Below the pieces are notes generated by a model, which worked only from the letters and a program-made list of their open reading frames with translations, had not been told where the DNA came from and searched no databases. Of a stretch of 64,000 nt of DNA, positions 38,330 to 50,679 are shown one piece after another. Each line of letters starts with the position of its first letter. Within the stretch, counting starts at the first letter, position 1. The position numbers were made by a program, and so were the translations under genes. Source of the DNA: an uncultured Bacilli bacterium (GTDB taxonomy: Bacteria; Bacillota_I; Bacilli_A; RF39; UBA660); assembly GCA_944373145.1 (NCBI GenBank), contig CALWAL010000003.1, positions 1 through 64,000 on the forward strand, given 5' to 3'.

Positions 38330-39586
38330 ATGTTTGTCAAAAAAATGAATGAAAGAATGAAATTAGTTTTGGTAATTATTTTATTTTTATTTATTGTAAT
38401 TATTATTAAAGTGTTTTATATTCAAGTTATAAGTTATGATAAATTAAATAGTTCTGCTAATAGTTTATGGAGTCGTAATCTTCCTTTAGAAGCTAATCGA
38501 GGAATTATTTATGATATTGACGGAGAGGTTTTAGCTGGTAATATTACTACAACTTCCTTAATTTTAATACCTAATCAGATTGTAGATAAGGAGCATACTG
38601 CACAAGAATTAGCACGTATTTTAGATGTTTCATACGATGACATGTATAATCATGTATCGAAAAAAACGTCTATTGAAAGAGTTCATCCTGAAGGTAGAAG
38701 ACTTAGTAATGACATTGCTGATCAAATTAATGATTTAAATTTGAGTGGTGTTTATTTAGTAAAAGAAGCTAAAAGAAATTATCCATATGATACATTACTT
38801 TCTAATACGCTAGGCTTTGTTGGTATTGATAATCAAGGTTTAAGTGGGTTAGAACTAATTTATGATGATTATTTAACAGGAATTTATGGCGCAATAAAAT
38901 ATTATAGTGATGCAAAGGGCAACACTTTAAATTTAAGTCAGGTTTATGAAAAACCTCAAGATGGTATTAATATTACCTTAACAGTAGATTATGAATTGCA
39001 AGAAGCTTTAGAAAGAGAGTTGGATAATGCTATGACAATGTATTCAGCCGATCAAGCTTTTGGAATAGCGATGAATCCCAATACTGGTGAGATTTTAGCG
39101 ATTGCCTCTCGTCCTGATTTTTCTCCTTCAAATTATCAAGATTATAGCATTGAAGATATTAATCGTAATTTACCGATTTGGATGACTTATGAGCCCGGTT
39201 CAACTTTTAAAATTATTTCTTTAGCAGCTGCTTTAGAAGAAGATTTAATTGATTTAGAAGAAGATCACTTTTATGATTCGGGGGTTGTAACAGTAGAATC
39301 AGCTAAACTTCATTGTTGGAAACATGGTGGGCACGGTGAACAAACTTATTTACAAGTCGTTGAAAATTCTTGTAATACAGGATTTGTTAATATTGGTTTA
39401 AAACTTGGCAAAGAAAAATTATTTAATTATATAGATTTATTTGGTTTTGGCAAAAAAACAGGTATTGAATTAAGTGGTGAAGCTCAAGGAATTATATTTG
39501 ATGTTGATAAGATAGGCGATTTAGAGACGGCTACTACGGCTTTTGGTCAAGGTGTATCAGTAACAGCTATTCACCTTGTTGTCTAA
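38330..39586 (+). CDS. spoVD: SpoVD, N-terminal part (gene interrupted by the element)
   Basis: SpoVD is the mother-cell transpeptidase that makes spore cortex peptidoglycan with SpoVE. This part has a membrane anchor at about residues 11-32, the pedestal start NRGIIYD and the transpeptidase motifs STFK (Ser291) and SCN (347-349). It then runs across the insertion at 39572 and stops as HLVV. KTG is missing, so this 418-residue product alone cannot be active. Joining 38330-39571 to 50017-50679 gives 635 codons (634 residues; Bacillus SpoVD is 646) and reads VTAIQQITAVSAAINGG across the junction, parallel to TTAIQQLQALTIIANDG in pbpB. Confidence 0.92.
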   Translation: MFVKKMNERMKLVLVIILFLFIVIIIKVFYIQVISYDKLNSSANSLWSRNLPLEANRGIIYDIDGEVLAGNITTTSLILIPNQIVDKEHTAQELARILDVSYDDMYNHVSKKTSIERVHPEGRRLSNDIADQINDLNLSGVYLVKEAKRNYPYDTLLSNTLGFVGIDNQGLSGLELIYDDYLTGIYGAIKYYSDAKGNTLNLSQVYEKPQDGINITLTVDYELQEALERELDNAMTMYSADQAFGIAMNPNTGEILAIASRPDFSPSNYQDYSIEDINRNLPIWMTYEPGSTFKIISLAAALEEDLIDLEEDHFYDSGVVTVESAKLHCWKHGGHGEQTYLQVVENSCNTGFVNIGLKLGKEKLFNYIDLFGFGKKTGIELSGEAQGIIFDVDKIGDLETATTAFGQGVSVTAIHLVV

Positions 39587-44015: not shown

Positions 44016-44045
44016 CACGATTAAATGTGATATAATTTAATCGTG
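44016..44045 (+). promoter_or_regulatory. AbiE operator: perfect 11-bp inverted repeat over the -10 box
   Basis: CACGATTAAAT (44016-44026) and ATTTAATCGTG (44035-44045) are perfect inverted repeats with an 8-base spacer. TATAAT (44031-44036) is embedded between and into the arms. AbiEi antitoxins are known to autorepress through inverted repeats at their promoter, so this is the likely site. Confidence 0.8.
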
Positions 44046-44060
44046 AAAGGAAATGATGAT

Positions 44061-44648
44061 ATGGAATATGAAAATAAAATTTTAAATTTATTTAAAAATG
44101 GTTATCTAACTACTAAAGATGTTAATGATAATAATATTCCTAGATTTTATTTAACTAAACTTATTAAAGAAAACAAAATAGAAAGAGTAAGTCGAGGAGT
44201 ATATATTAAGAAAAATGAACTAGTCGATGAGTTTGTGATTTTACAAAGCAAAAGTAAAAATTCTATTTACTCAAATACAACCGCTTTATATTTACACGGT
44301 TTTTCTAATAGAATTCCTATTAAATATGATATTACTATCAATAGTGGTTATAATGGCTCTCTCCAAAAGGAAGATAATGTTAATTTATTTTATACAAAAA
44401 GAGAATTATTAGAGTTAGGAGTAATTGACTATAAATTGGATTCTGGTAATATTATCAGAGTTTACGATTTAGATAAAACTATTTGTGATATTATTAAAAA
44501 TAAGAAGAAAATAGATGCTGAAATTTTTAATAAGGCTATTAGAGAGTATTTTTATAGTAAAAAGAAAAACACTTTAAAACTATATGAATACGCTAAAAAG
44601 ATGAATATTTATAATAAAGTAAGAGATACTTTTGAGGTGTTTGGATGA
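44061..44648 (+). CDS. AbiEi-like antitoxin / transcriptional regulator (type IV TA)
   Basis: The 195-residue protein has an N-terminal winged helix (FKNGYLTTKDVNDNNIPRFYLTKLI) followed by IERVSRGVYIKKN. The AbiEi core comes next: SIYSNTTALYLHGFSNRIP near 80, then RVYDLDKTICDIIKNKKKID. In type IV AbiE systems the antitoxin represses the operon and counteracts the toxin without binding it. The start at 44061 is spaced nine bases from AAAGGA; the upstream GTG lies in the operator. The stop overlaps the toxin start by four bases. Confidence 0.87.
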   Translation: MEYENKILNLFKNGYLTTKDVNDNNIPRFYLTKLIKENKIERVSRGVYIKKNELVDEFVILQSKSKNSIYSNTTALYLHGFSNRIPIKYDITINSGYNGSLQKEDNVNLFYTKRELLELGVIDYKLDSGNIIRVYDLDKTICDIIKNKKKIDAEIFNKAIREYFYSKKKNTLKLYEYAKKMNIYNKVRDTFEVFG

Positions 44649-45496
44649 TTAAAAATAGAGATAGTCTAAAAGCCAAAGCATCTAACTTATCTAAAAAGAC
44701 TAACATACCTAATAAATATTTAATTCAAAACTTTATGTTTGAAGCCTTATTAAAAAGAATATCAAAATCTAAGTATAAAAATAAATTTGTCATTAAAGGT
44801 GGACTTTTATTATCGTCTGTCTTTGGTGTTAATTTGAGAAGTACTATGGATTTAGACACTACTATAAAAGGATTACCACTAGATAGAGATACTATTACTA
44901 AAGTTATTAATGAAATTATAAGTATTGATGTAGAGGATAATGTCAGACTTGAAATAGAAAATATGAAAGATATCAGAGAAGAAGAATTATATTCCGGATT
45001 TGAAGTTAATTTAAAAGCAGAATTTGACGGTTTAAAAACTAATTTAATGATTGATATAACTACTGGAGATATTATCACTTATAAAGAAGTCGAGTTTAAA
45101 TATAGTACCTTATTTGATAATGAAACCATTAATATTATGACTTATAATTATGAAACAATTATTGCTGAAAAATTTGAATCAATTATTAGTAGAAATATCG
45201 ATAATACTAGAATGAAAGATTACTATGATTTATATATGTTCGTTAATTTAAAATGGAATGACATTAATAAAGACACTTTAAGAAAAGCCATTATCAATAC
45301 ATCCAAAGCACGAGAAACATTAGACTATATTGATAATGCTAGCAAATATATAGAATTAATTAGTGATGATGAAAGATTAAAAGCTTTATGGAATAGTTAT
45401 CAAAATAACTATGAATATGCAAAAGATATAAAGTTTGTTGATACAATAAATGCCATTAAAGTAATTAGTGAAATTGTTGTACCAGTTGCAATTTAA
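44645..45496 (+). CDS. AbiEii-like nucleotidyltransferase toxin
   Basis: This 283-residue protein has the nucleotidyltransferase fold motif KGGLLLSSVFG near residue 50 followed by LRSTMDLDTTIKG (the D-x-D metal site, near 68). EKFESIISRNIDNTRMKDYYDLYM near 175 is another AbiEii/DUF1814 hallmark. Such toxins add nucleotides (to tRNA ends in the studied relatives), blocking translation, and can serve in phage abortive infection. The ATGA overlap with the antitoxin is typical. The pair would select against loss of the excised circle. Confidence 0.88.
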   Translation: MIKNRDSLKAKASNLSKKTNIPNKYLIQNFMFEALLKRISKSKYKNKFVIKGGLLLSSVFGVNLRSTMDLDTTIKGLPLDRDTITKVINEIISIDVEDNVRLEIENMKDIREEELYSGFEVNLKAEFDGLKTNLMIDITTGDIITYKEVEFKYSTLFDNETINIMTYNYETIIAEKFESIISRNIDNTRMKDYYDLYMFVNLKWNDINKDTLRKAIINTSKARETLDYIDNASKYIELISDDERLKALWNSYQNNYEYAKDIKFVDTINAIKVISEIVVPVAI

Positions 45497-46570: not shown

Positions 46571-46599
46571 CTTGACCTAGTTTTGTCAAGTGCTATAAT
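46571..46599 (+). promoter_or_regulatory. Strong promoter with overlapping inverted repeat
   Basis: TTGACC (46572-46577) and TATAAT (46594-46599) have a 16-base spacer. CTTGAC (46571-46576) and GTCAAG (46585-46590) form a perfect 6-bp inverted repeat across the -35 and spacer, so a repressor could bind there. Transcription would enter the hairpin region that follows. Confidence 0.7.
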
Positions 46600-46605
46600 A
46601 TAGTA

Positions 46606-46890
46606 AAATATTAAGAAATTACGCAGAGAGGAACTAGATTCTTCTCTTTTTCTTTTGAAAGAAGGTGTTATATAAAATAAAATTAAAGGAAGCGCATATT
46701 TTTAATGAATTAGTAATAAGTGGTCACTATTTATAAAAGTAGTAGCCACTTTTTTAATTAGTATTAAAAGAACTTTTATACATGAGTAGTCACTTCTACT
46801 TATAAAAGTAGTCATTTTTGCAAGTGCAAAAATAGTAAGACACCATTACTTCATCCTTATTTTATCAAGGATCAATAAATTTATGGTGTC
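46606..46890 (+). ncRNA. Structured non-coding transcript or origin region in the element
   Basis: The region after the promoter has no gene but at least four hairpins. AGAGAGGAA...TTCTTCTCT with a T run lies near 46625-46652 (terminator-like). AAGTGGTCACTA...TAGTAGCCACTT plus T6 is near 46718-46756. ATTTTTGC-AAGT-GCAAAAAT is at 46813-46832. GACACCAT (46839-46846) pairs with ATGGTGTC (46883-46890), enclosing a CCTT...AAGG stem. Options are a small regulatory RNA, an attenuator leader for the HTH gene, or a replication/transfer origin. Non-coding nature is clear; which of these is not. Confidence 0.5.
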
Positions 46891-46994
46891 GTTCTTCTTA
46901 TGCCCATTAAAAATATGCAGTATTTTTACTATAAAAAACACCCCCAAAATAGCAAAAGTGGCTACTCATAATTTTAAGAAAGGAAAAATAAATA

Positions 46995-47311
46995 TGATAT
47001 TTAGAACAAATAAAATTACAAATTATACGAAGATTGATAATAGATATTTGGAAGATAAAAACATTTCTTTAAAGGCTAAAGGATTATTAACTTTAATGTT
47101 ATCTTTACCAGATAATTGGAAATTTAATGTTAATGGTTTATGCCTTTTATGTAAAGAAAGTAAAAATGCAGTTAATAGCGCAATAAAAGAATTAAAGGAT
47201 AATAAATATTTAGAGGTGGAAAAAACTTACGATGAAAGTGGAAGATTTATTTATGTATATATCATTTATGAATATCCAGATGACCCGAAAGGACATCTCG
47301 ATTTACCATAA
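46995..47311 (+). CDS. Helix-turn-helix protein (replication/regulatory type)
   Basis: The 105-residue protein begins MIFRTNKITNYTKID-NRYL and contains ISLKAKGLLTLMLSLPDNWKF followed by CKESKNAVNSAIKELKDNKYL. This is a winged helix common in phage and plasmid replication-initiation and transfer-region proteins of Firmicutes (helix-turn-helix domain, RepL/DnaD-like). AAGAAAGGAAAAATAAAT precedes the ATG; the open frame further upstream runs through the hairpins and is rejected. The usual longer C-terminal part is absent, so it may be a shortened relative. Confidence 0.75.
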
Positions 47312-47576: not shown

Positions 47577-48002
47577 ATGTATTTAAAAAATACAAGTGAT
47601 GAGGTTAAAAAAATAACAGAAAAAATAATTGAACTGGATAATGAAAATAAACTTAAATTTATCAGTTATATTTTAAGTTTATGGGATAATGGCCAAATTA
47701 ATAGTTTAAATGAAACTAACCCTTATTTATTAGATGACAGTATCTGTATCGATATATTTAATCCAAGTAGTATTGGTTACCGTTATTTAGTAACTAAATT
47801 AAAAGAATATTGGAATCATACATATAAACTTTATCATCTTTATCAAGAGGAATATAAAAGAATGATACCTTTATTTGAAAAGTTATCTTTTAAAGAAAAG
47901 ATAGATGTACTTGCAGAAATATTTTTAATTTTAGAACATGATAAATTACTACCAGATAATGTTGATGGCTATGAAATTGCTAGAATGATTATAAAATATT
48001 AA
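47577..48002 (+). CDS. Unknown element protein upstream of the recombinase module
   Basis: The 141-residue protein is helical and acidic: TSDEVKKITEKIIELDNENKLKFISYILSLWDNG, then SICIDIFNPSSIGYRYLVTKLKEYWNHTYKLYH and FEKLSFKEKIDVLAEIFLILEHDK. It has no membrane segment, cysteine cluster or known motif. The ATG at 47577 follows AAAGGATGTG. It lies just ahead of the attenuator and could be a regulator or an accessory recombination factor. Family not recognised. Confidence 0.65.
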   Translation: MYLKNTSDEVKKITEKIIELDNENKLKFISYILSLWDNGQINSLNETNPYLLDDSICIDIFNPSSIGYRYLVTKLKEYWNHTYKLYHLYQEEYKRMIPLFEKLSFKEKIDVLAEIFLILEHDKLLPDNVDGYEIARMIIKY

Positions 48003-48025
48003 ATATTTGAAAACTAAATTGTTAT

Positions 48026-48128
48026 TTGAAAACTTAATATTTTCGGATAATAATTTAGTCTAATTTTGTCCTTATAAGGTATTAAGTTTTCAATTTTTGT
48101 AGAACTTATTACCTTAAGTTCTTTTTTA
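48026..48128 (+). promoter_or_regulatory. Predicted transcription attenuator ahead of the recombinase module
   Basis: Four segments can pair in exclusive ways. A (48026-48039, TTGAAAACTTAATA) is fully complementary to B (48080-48093). B's 48076-48088 (AAGGTATTAAGTT) pairs 12 of 13 with C (48103-48115, AACTTATTACCTT). AGAACTT (48101-48107) pairs with AAGTTCT (48116-48122) followed by T6, a terminator. So A:B permits termination, while B:C blocks it. The signal that chooses is not evident; no clear leader peptide is seen. Confidence 0.65.
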
Positions 48129-48168
48129 GTTTTTATAAAAATAAACTTAAAAGAAAGGACAAAAATAT

Positions 48169-48375
48169 ATGGAAAAGGTAAATAAAATTCCATCTAGAAT
48201 AATTGAAATAGAAACAAGTATCAAATTGCTAGAATACTTAAAAAGAAAAAATGTTATAGATGATGGAATGTATAACTTTTGTATTAACAAATTAATGAAT
48301 AAACTTACATTAGAAAAAAGTAAGATTGATGAAGATTATATAAATAATACCAATAATTATAAAATATTAACTTAG
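48169..48375 (+). CDS. Small protein, candidate recombination directionality factor
   Basis: The 68-residue protein (IPSRIIEIETSIKLLEYLKRK, DDGMYNFCINKLMNKLTLE) is helical, with basic and acidic patches. Its stop is 11 bases before the recombinase start, and GAAAGGAC precedes its ATG, so the two are co-expressed downstream of the attenuator. Small unrelated proteins beside serine integrases often act as directionality factors that switch integration to excision. There is no sequence-family proof; the role is inferred from position only. Confidence 0.65.
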   Translation: MEKVNKIPSRIIEIETSIKLLEYLKRKNVIDDGMYNFCINKLMNKLTLEKSKIDEDYINNTNNYKILT

Positions 48376-48386
48376 GAGGCGTTACT

Positions 48387-50036
48387 ATGGACTTATATAC
48401 AGTTAGGAATAACATTATGAAAGGCATTCCCTTGCAAGAATTAAAATTAAGAGTATGTTTCTATGCAAGAGTATCAACGGATAAAGATGAGCAATTACAC
48501 TCTCTATCTGCTCAAGTATCTTTTTTTAATGATTATATAAGTAAAGTTCCTAACTGGCAGTTTATAGGTTCATATATTGATGAAGGTATTAGTGGCACAT
48601 CAGTTAATAAACGTGAAGAATTTTTAAAAATGATCGAAGATGCCAAAAAGCATAAATTTGATTTAATATTAACAAAAGAAATATCAAGATTTTCAAGAAG
48701 TACTTTAGACAGCATCAAATATACACAAGAGTTACTGCAAGATGGTGTTGGTGTCTATTTTTTAAATGATAATATTAATACTATCTTACCTGATTCTGAA
48801 CTTAGACTTACAATAATGTCTTCGATTGCTCAAGATGAAGTTAGAAAACTATCAGAAAGAGTATCTTTTGGCATGAAAAGAAGTATTGATAGTGGTACTG
48901 TGCTAGGTTGTTCTAATATCTATGGTTATGTAAAAGATAAAGGAAAATTAGTGATTGATGAAAAAGAGGCAGAAATGATTAAAATTATATTTGATAGATA
49001 TGCCAATACTACAGATGGTTTATCTAAAGTATCAAAGTATTTATATGAATTAGGTTACAAAAATAAAAAAGGTAAAAGAATAGATACAACAATACTAACT
49101 AGAATTATTGAAAACCCTAAATATAAAGGATACTATTGTGGCCATAAAACGAAAGTATTAGATTACCGTACTAAAAAGAAGAAAAAATTAAATGAATCGG
49201 ATTGGATTATTTATAAAGATAACGAAAATGTCCCACCGATAGTATCAGAAGAACTATGGGATAGAGCTAACAAAAAATTAAAGGAAAGGCAAGATAGTTT
49301 TACAAACAGGGCAGTAAATAAAAAAGTGTTTCAAAATAGATATACTTATTCCGGCAAAATTTACTGTGGTAGACATGGCTTAACTTATCATAGATCATCT
49401 GCTGGTAAAAGAAAAAATAATCCCGTATGGGAATGCCAAGTATACCGGAAAGAAAGTTTAAAGGGTTGCTCTAATCCTAGAGTATTTGAGTATGAATTAG
49501 ATATAGTTTTTAAAGATATGTTTAAAAAATTATTGAAACGAAGAAAGCATATTTTTGATGATATATTAAATGACTGTAAAAATTATTTAGAAACCAATAA
49601 TAATGAGTCTGAAATAAAAAATATAGAATCCAAAATTTTAATGTTTAATAATAAAAAAGATAAATTACTAGAACTTGTTATGGAGGAGTATTTATCTAAA
49701 GAGGACTATAAAAAACAGGTGGATTTAATTAATGAAGAAATAATTACTAATCAAAACAGATTAAATGAATTACAAAATAACAAGCAAGATAAAAACTATA
49801 TAGAAAATAAAATTAATGAACTAAAAGAAATGTTAGATAATTGTTTAACTGATGATGAGTGTTTCAGTGATGTATTTAATGAATTAATTGATAGAATCTA
49901 TGTTTATAAAGAAGAGAATAAAAAGATAAAACTAGATATTTATATAAAAACAGGAGAAAGCATAAATATATTCTCTGATAACTTGGATAGAAAGTTTCAT
50001 TTAATAGACGACGTTACAGCAAATTACGGCTGTTAG
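48387..50036 (+). CDS. Large serine recombinase (integrase/excisionase of the spoVD element)
   Basis: The 549-residue recombinase has the resolvase catalytic domain with YARVSTD (nucleophile Ser30), FDLILTKEISRFSRST near residue 91, and DEVRKLSERVSFGMKRSI near 151. A Recombinase domain follows (about 175-290). The zinc ribbon is YCGRHGLTYH...WECQ...GCSNP (about 325-370), and a coiled coil spans about 405-470. AGGAGGCG precedes the ATG. The stop codon at 50034-50036 lies beyond the crossover, in spoVD DNA. In the excised circle the frame would replace the last five residues (ANYGC) with 35 others, to 579 residues. It is the most likely enzyme for insertion and excision here. Confidence 0.95.
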   Translation: MDLYTVRNNIMKGIPLQELKLRVCFYARVSTDKDEQLHSLSAQVSFFNDYISKVPNWQFIGSYIDEGISGTSVNKREEFLKMIEDAKKHKFDLILTKEISRFSRSTLDSIKYTQELLQDGVGVYFLNDNINTILPDSELRLTIMSSIAQDEVRKLSERVSFGMKRSIDSGTVLGCSNIYGYVKDKGKLVIDEKEAEMIKIIFDRYANTTDGLSKVSKYLYELGYKNKKGKRIDTTILTRIIENPKYKGYYCGHKTKVLDYRTKKKKKLNESDWIIYKDNENVPPIVSEELWDRANKKLKERQDSFTNRAVNKKVFQNRYTYSGKIYCGRHGLTYHRSSAGKRKNNPVWECQVYRKESLKGCSNPRVFEYELDIVFKDMFKKLLKRRKHIFDDILNDCKNYLETNNNESEIKNIESKILMFNNKKDKLLELVMEEYLSKEDYKKQVDLINEEIITNQNRLNELQNNKQDKNYIENKINELKEMLDNCLTDDECFSDVFNELIDRIYVYKEENKKIKLDIYIKTGESINIFSDNLDRKFHLIDDVTANYGC

Positions 50037-50040
50037 CGCA
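49995..50040 (+). other. attR: right junction of the element in spoVD
   Basis: Element sequence ends ...TTTAATAGACGACGTTA at 50016. CA at 50017-50018 is the crossover, and spoVD resumes with GCAAATTACGGCTGTTAGC. Counting outward from CA, element positions 5-20 on this side match the complement of positions 5-20 on the attL side in 14 of 16 places. This is the two-fold symmetry of an attP site. Confidence 0.88.
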
Positions 50041-50679
50041 GCAATTAATGGGGGAATTCTTTATAAGCCTTATATTGTTTCAAGTTTAAATGATCCTGAA
50101 ACTAATCAGGTTATTTTAAAAAATGAACCAACAGTAGTGCGTAAAGTTATTAGTGAAACGACTAGTGAAAAAGTTAGATATGCTTTAGAAAGCGTAGTTG
50201 CTAATGGGACTGGACATAATGCATACATTGCGGGATATCGTGTTGGTGGTAAGACTGGTACTGCTCAGAAAGTTGAAGATGGTAAATATTTAGTAGGTAA
50301 TTATATAACTTCTTTTATTGGATTTATGCCAGCTGATGATCCTGAAATTGTTATTTATATTGCTGTTGATAATGCTAAAGGAGTTAGTCAATATGGAGGA
50401 ACTGTAGCAGCTCCATTAGCGCGTAATTTTCTACTTTCAGCAATTCCTATTTTAGGATTAGAATATGATGAAGAGGGAATGGATAAGGAGTATGTGTATC
50501 CAGATAAAAAATATTATACAATACCCGATGTATCCGGTTTAGAATTGAAAGATGCTTTAAAGCAATTAAAAAATTTTAAAGTTGAATATGAGGGAGAAGG
50601 TAAAGTAATAGAACAATCACCTAAAGCGGGAATTGATATTTATGAAGGAGAAACGATTCGTTTATATTTAAGTGAATAG
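50017..50679 (+). CDS. spoVD: SpoVD, C-terminal part (beyond the insertion)
   Basis: This fragment has no start of its own. In the rejoined frame it begins at CAG CAA ATT ACG GCT (QQITA). It carries the third transpeptidase motif KTGTAQ (Lys493 of the joined protein), MPADDPEIVIYIAVDNAKG, and one C-terminal PASTA domain (TIPDVSGLELKDALKQLKN...EGETIRLYLSE). A single PASTA domain is the SpoVD pattern. An internal GTG at 50137 could give a short open frame but would be non-functional. It is followed by a small membrane protein gene and mraY-spoVE. Confidence 0.92.
   Translation, partial: QQITAVSAAINGGILYKPYIVSSLNDPETNQVILKNEPTVVRKVISETTSEKVRYALESVVANGTGHNAYIAGYRVGGKTGTAQKVEDGKYLVGNYITSFIGFMPADDPEIVIYIAVDNAKGVSQYGGTVAAPLARNFLLSAIPILGLEYDEEGMDKEYVYPDKKYYTIPDVSGLELKDALKQLKNFKVEYEGEGKVIEQSPKAGIDIYEGETIRLYLSE

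Follow-up and report, generated by a model that had tools for sequence, protein, structure and literature searches.

What decides whether RNA polymerase enters the genes of a large serine recombinase carried by an integrative element? The question is raised by a leader in the contig CALWAL010000003.1 of an uncultured Bacilli bacterium, of which positions 1 to 64,000 were analysed (this whole stretch of 64,000 nucleotides is called the window), and for which an earlier note had read mutually exclusive RNA pairings ahead of a recombinase module as transcription attenuation. With a probability that we put at about 0.6, the leader is a transcription attenuator that decides whether RNA polymerase proceeds into the S68-recombinase genes of the element; that the module is gated by termination in the leader is very likely from its anatomy, and we infer the acting signal, the direction of its control and any consequence for excision. 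A small gene and the recombinase do form the module beyond the leader, as had been noted, and the leader stands directly before both in nearly every copy examined. The genes and the candidate promoter in the window are:

46572-46599 (+), promoter-like TTGACC-16 nt-TATAAT, read from the sequence, candidate start of a transcript that would cross the HTH gene and gene X and reach the leader
47577-48002 (+), gene X, 141 aa, conserved and unclassified, immediately upstream of the leader
48169-48375 (+), S68 small gene, 68 aa, unclassified
48387-50036 (+), large serine recombinase with Resolvase, Recombinase and zinc-ribbon domains, and its own AGGAGG ahead of the ATG

The S68 leader covers 48003-48168 (+), between the stop codon of gene X (48000-48002) and the start of S68 (48169), and comprises the following parts, with the basis of each in brackets where one applies:

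48013-48059 (+), P1 hairpin, 48013-48032 pairing with 48040-48059 over 20 bp and concealing segment A (fold, covariation)
48020-48034 (+), boxA-like core, TGTTATTTGAAAACT, with a purine at 48024 in place of the C of rRNA boxA (comparison with rRNA boxA)
48026-48039 (+), segment A, TTGAAAACTTAATA (exact pairing, retention in relatives)
48064-48073 (+), anti-Shine-Dalgarno (anti-SD) segment, TTTTGTCCTT (fold, covariation, per-leader test)
48076-48093 (+), segment B, partner of A through 48080-48093 or of C through 48076-48088 (pairing, covariation)
48102-48115 (+), segment C, partner of B or, with 48102-48108, 5′ arm of the terminator (covariation)
48115-48121 and 48122-48127 (+), segment D and T6 tract, which supply the 3′ arm of the intrinsic terminator and its tail (exact pairing, covariation)
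48154-48164 (+), Shine-Dalgarno (SD) region of S68, complementary to the anti-SD segment (fold, per-leader test)

The pairings on which attenuation had been proposed were recovered in full: A is complementary to B (48080-48093, TATTAAGTTTTCAA) at 14 of 14 positions, B (48076-48088) pairs with C (48103-48115) at 12 of 13, and the terminator GAACTTA/TAAGTTC (48102-48108/48115-48121) is an exact stem of 7 bp followed by T6 (48122-48127). A 14-bp Watson-Crick stem occurred in none of 300 dinucleotide shuffles of 48003-48168 (longest, 13), and the folding energy of the leader was -48 kcal/mol compared to -21.4 ± 3.3 kcal/mol in the shuffles (z = -8.1). The minimum-energy fold was not the A:B form; it contains P1, a B:C hairpin and a closing helix between 48064-48073 and 48155-48164, and P1 takes the 5′ half of A into its stem and the remainder into its loop. 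P1 and A:B are thus mutually exclusive, as are A:B and B:C, and B:C and C:D. The three-segment scheme therefore stood as to its pairings and was incomplete as to its parts, lacking P1 as the competitor of A:B, the anti-SD segment and the boxA-like core, the addition of which altered its predicted logic.

A scan with the recombinase gave 80 loci, from which 37 distinct leaders were aligned, and covariation was scored on an alignment (A2) of 16 diverse leaders, two of them from a pattern search of the class. The pairings are kept in related integrative elements whose recombinases are as little as about 45% identical. In A2, P1 was paired in 96.7% of the cells, with two-sided changes at 4 pairs; the corresponding values were 92.5% and 7 pairs for B:C, 98.1% and 1 pair for C:D, and 86.2% and 5 pairs for the SD helix, and in each of these four cases 0 of 500 shuffles reached the covariation score. 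For A:B, paired in 92.9% of the cells with two-sided changes at 2 pairs, the score was reached by 56 of 500 shuffles, so that this pairing rests mainly on its length and retention and not on covariation. Lack of conservation in relatives had been named beforehand as an outcome that would speak against an attenuator; the mutually exclusive pairings turned out to be conserved with compensatory changes, more weakly for A:B, which argues for a real terminator/antiterminator switch. As judged from these sequence comparisons, the attenuator is real and conserved across related elements: it has an intrinsic terminator before the genes, a covarying antiterminator (B:C) and an upstream deciding element (P1/A:B), the decision being predicted in silico.

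The same hairpins might act as passive insulation, a signal-free terminator for X and its neighbours that shields the recombinase from read-through, and the terminator is the most persistent part of the leader, being kept in X-less loci that lost A or B. However, a simple terminator needs neither conserved covarying competitors such as P1 and B:C nor an invariant boxA-like core, and we consider this explanation unlikely.

The logic of the switch was analysed by folding the RNA up to the terminator with chosen strands blocked, in 27 leaders. With P1 blocked and A free, the terminator probability P(C:D) was above 0.5 in 24 of the 27 (median 1.00), and with A blocked it was below 0.5 in 25 of them (median 0.00). 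When a block of 18 nt was shifted stepwise along six leaders, the same sign pattern resulted: termination in five of six with the block on the 5′ base of P1, termination also with the block on the 3′ strand of P1, and abolition of termination in all six with the block on A. For the window leader, the in silico model predicts that B:C forms and the terminator does not when P1 is intact or A is occupied, and that both A:B and the terminator form when P1 is opened and A is free. Unconstrained folding favoured read-through in some leaders and termination in others; thus, the default state either differs between elements or is not captured by such folds. The group L044-L048 is devoid of P1, and the two leaders folded from it (L044, L045) have A:B as default, with predicted termination.

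Beyond the terminator, the anti-SD segment is complementary to 48155-48164 at 10 of 10 positions and pairs with the S68 Shine-Dalgarno sequence in many leaders, with letters wholly different among groups (TTTTGTCCTT/AAGGACAAAA in the window, TATCTTAT/ATAAGATA in L044 and L045). The per-leader test of this pairing was significant in 12 of 27 leaders, and the SD helix is therefore less firm in the most distant group. Since A:B crosses the SD helix, the S68 SD would be masked in read-through RNA held by P1 and B:C, where its concealment under the anti-SD segment would provide a second, translational gate. With S68 hidden in this way and the recombinase having its own SD, independent setting of the S68:recombinase ratio would be possible.

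The core of A, TGTTATTTGAAAACT, equals the rRNA boxA of the host's family, TGTTCTTTGAAAACT, save at boxA position 4, where C is replaced by a purine; 14 of its 15 bases, TTTGAAAACT included, match, the host assembly itself having no 16S gene. Among 30 16S rRNA loci of the family, TG[A/T]TCTTTGAAAACT or a close variant preceded 16S by 64-96 bases and the 16S-23S spacer contained [A/T]GTTCTTTGAAAACT in all cases where these regions were readable, and the signal was also found in several other Bacilli families. Such a location is that of the boxA element bound by NusB-S10 (PMC5725501). In the leaders the core reads TGTT[A/G]TTTGAAAACT, and TTTGAAAACT is invariant in 42 of 43 distinct leaders, the sole exception being one X-less copy; that it does not change while its partners in P1 and B vary suggests that it is recognised by something other than its pairing strands. 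In the window leader, TTTGAAAACT is present a second time, about 17 nt upstream. A promoter within the leader, TTGAAA-17-AATAAT (48026-48054), was considered and rejected, its first hexamer being invariant and its second unconserved in relatives.

At position 4, 41 of the 43 leaders have A and the other 2 have G, whereas every rRNA boxA copy seen has C. Actinobacterial rRNA boxA probably has G at this position. The C, absent from the leader core, is critical in E. coli, where C4A has been used as an inactivating boxA mutation (PMC5725501). For these reasons we call the core boxA-like and not boxA, and regard NusB-S10 binding to it as no more than plausible. The host has a NusB gene, and no Rho RNA-binding domain was found in its assembly (95% complete), so that antitermination at the leader would act against an intrinsic terminator.

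A leader-peptide attenuator would read the same stretch as codons, a ribosome on NTG-TTA-TTT-GAA-AAC-TTA-ATA (M-L-F-E-N-L-I) inside P1 selecting the hairpin by its position. NTG, with A, T, G or C as first base, does precede the core in nearly all leaders, and most core changes keep the amino acids (TTA>TTG, TTA>CTA, ATA>ATT); yet no Shine-Dalgarno sequence lies ahead of the NTG, the frame has no conserved length and ends anywhere from codon 8 to about 35, and L008 has TCG instead of a start codon. Moreover, TTT, GAA and AAC are constant even at their third bases, which agrees better with an RNA element than with coding and makes translation of this frame an improbable basis for the switch.

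A further candidate for reading the core is gene X, whose length ranges from 141 to 183 aa. Neither X nor S68 belongs to a Pfam, PHROG or NCBIfam family. The AlphaFold2 model of X is confident and helical (pLDDT 91.7), and its fold gave no PDB or viral match and no Foldseek match at E ≤ 0.001; a relationship with NusB was ruled out, with an hhalign probability of 0.4% in addition to the lack of Foldseek matches at that threshold. In the 80 distinct loci, X occurred together with an intact boxA-like core in 41 and alone in none, the core occurred alone in 4, and neither was present in 35. X-less loci have mostly missing or damaged 5′ halves of the switch (L114, L126, L119, L123, L133, L033, L043); most of B is lost in L079, and the switch is intact in L083. 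The position of X next to the core explains part of this co-occurrence, so that the distribution can do no more than suggest a dependence between the two.

On these counts X itself, and not NusB-S10, might recognise the core and drive read-through of the neighbouring module, a reading favoured by the absence of loci with X alone and by the damaged switches of X-less loci. Against it, a single deletion takes both X and the adjoining core, L083 retains an intact core without X, and X is neither a NusB relative nor similar to a known fold; an antiterminator made of X is therefore possible, but rather doubtful.

Two of the X-less loci (L114, L126) lack gene X together with the 5′ half of P1, and segment A there follows immediately upon a promoter-like stretch similar to window 46580-46615. 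In L043 (3281-3373), sequence appears to have been deleted between strands A and C, which are alike, so that only the boxA-like core and the terminator are left.

Within the host's family, 45 of 386 genomes, from 35 genera, contained a match to a covariance model of the leader (R1), and a strict leader pattern run over 395 genomes of the class matched within the host's family exclusively. Of the loci inspected, nearly all have a recombinase directly behind the leader; L117, at a contig end, and L128 do not. When viral contigs were scanned with the core, two were found, both with the same module including X and the recombinase. The leader had no match above the gathering score in Rfam, where R1 has no counterpart and where chance matches to mir-1502, under the gathering score, were discarded as an identity; it had no match in the plasmid collection either, and no description of an attenuator of a serine recombinase was found in the open-access literature.

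Leaders of antisense-RNA attenuators typically combine long perfect stems with mutually exclusive pairings, and the S68 leader has both; as in plasmid copy control, a counter-transcript pairing with it could set the outcome. The resemblance to the antisense attenuators of plasmid rep genes (pT181/pIP501 type) extends to the competing hairpins before a gene of a mobile replicon, but the gene controlled here is not for replication, no minus-strand promoter-like site was seen within the leader and only weak ones in neighbouring genes, and the invariant core would be left unexplained, so that we hold an antisense mechanism to be very unlikely.

As regards the element itself, it interrupts a penicillin-binding-protein gene lying ahead of mraY and ftsW (window 38330-39586 and about 50017-50679). 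Where the recombinase is about 59% identical or more, nearly all relatives have their end at one and the same point of this gene, and the recombinase subfamily thus appears site-specific for it. In L018, L054 and L062 the flank just after the recombinase resembles the left end of the window element (39577 onward) and not the target gene, which may represent tandem elements or a captured circular form. Upstream of gene X, the region 46610-46990 holds a second complex leader before the HTH gene, with a hairpin and, behind it, T-rich sequence near 46630-46660, and with repeats (GTGGTCAC.../AGTAGCCAC.../GTGGCTACT) allowing several alternative pairings. The HTH gene (46994-47308) encodes a short protein that resembles phage replication initiators in their N-terminal part (phrog_4707, E 2.7e-25); in L076 this protein is 97% identical and the recombinase only 44%, so modules have been exchanged. 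The element also carries an AbiEi/AbiEii type toxin-antitoxin pair (44043-45496), adjoined by genes that by eye are ABC-transporter-like.

Among known systems, the trp-type attenuators of biosynthetic operons share with the leader at least three segments, mutually exclusive pairings and an intrinsic terminator before the controlled genes; in contrast to them, the leader would control the recombinase of a mobile element, has no convincing leader peptide and contains a boxA-like core, and it is not in Rfam. From the boxA/NusB-S10 antitermination of rRNA operons, whose boxA its core matches at 14 of 15 bases in the host's family, it differs in the purine at position 4 and in the placement of the core in a strand of an RNA switch. 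Outside rRNA, boxA is known from E. coli suhB and a C. koseri ParE-like gene (PMC5725501), and from CRISPR arrays (as cited in PMC7862264). Like phage lambda with N and nut, the mobile element may borrow boxA and have a protein of its own, X, encoded next to it; however, no boxB-like protein site was identified in the leader and X is folded and helical, unlike N. What appears to be new here is a boxA-like core within a conserved family of terminator/antiterminator switches absent from Rfam.

Returning to the attenuator, we propose that the core of A would be read as the RNA emerges, most likely by the host NusB-S10 module or a variant of it, possibly joined by protein X. This would be the most economical reader, the purine at position 4 being the main objection. 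An occupied A would allow B:C to form and give read-through, and opening of P1 while A stays free would allow A:B and give termination; a ribosome finishing gene X just upstream, or another occupant of the P1 base, would then favour termination. That the recombinase is coupled in this way to host rRNA antitermination, with NusB-S10 and X as a dedicated partner reading a variant boxA inside the attenuator and the element being mobilised according to host growth or ribosome supply, is a tentative idea that may well prove wrong.

Large serine recombinases are widely used tools, and the control of their expression in natural elements is poorly known. With a conserved, covarying attenuator containing a near-copy of the rRNA boxA, the recombinase decision can be approached by experiment in a short RNA. 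Should Nus factors read the core, a mobile element would join the small set of targets known for that machinery outside rRNA, and there would be a concrete link from host physiology to excision of the element. If the coupling to rRNA antitermination holds, antitermination would here be directed at an intrinsic terminator, in a host whose assembly yielded no Rho.
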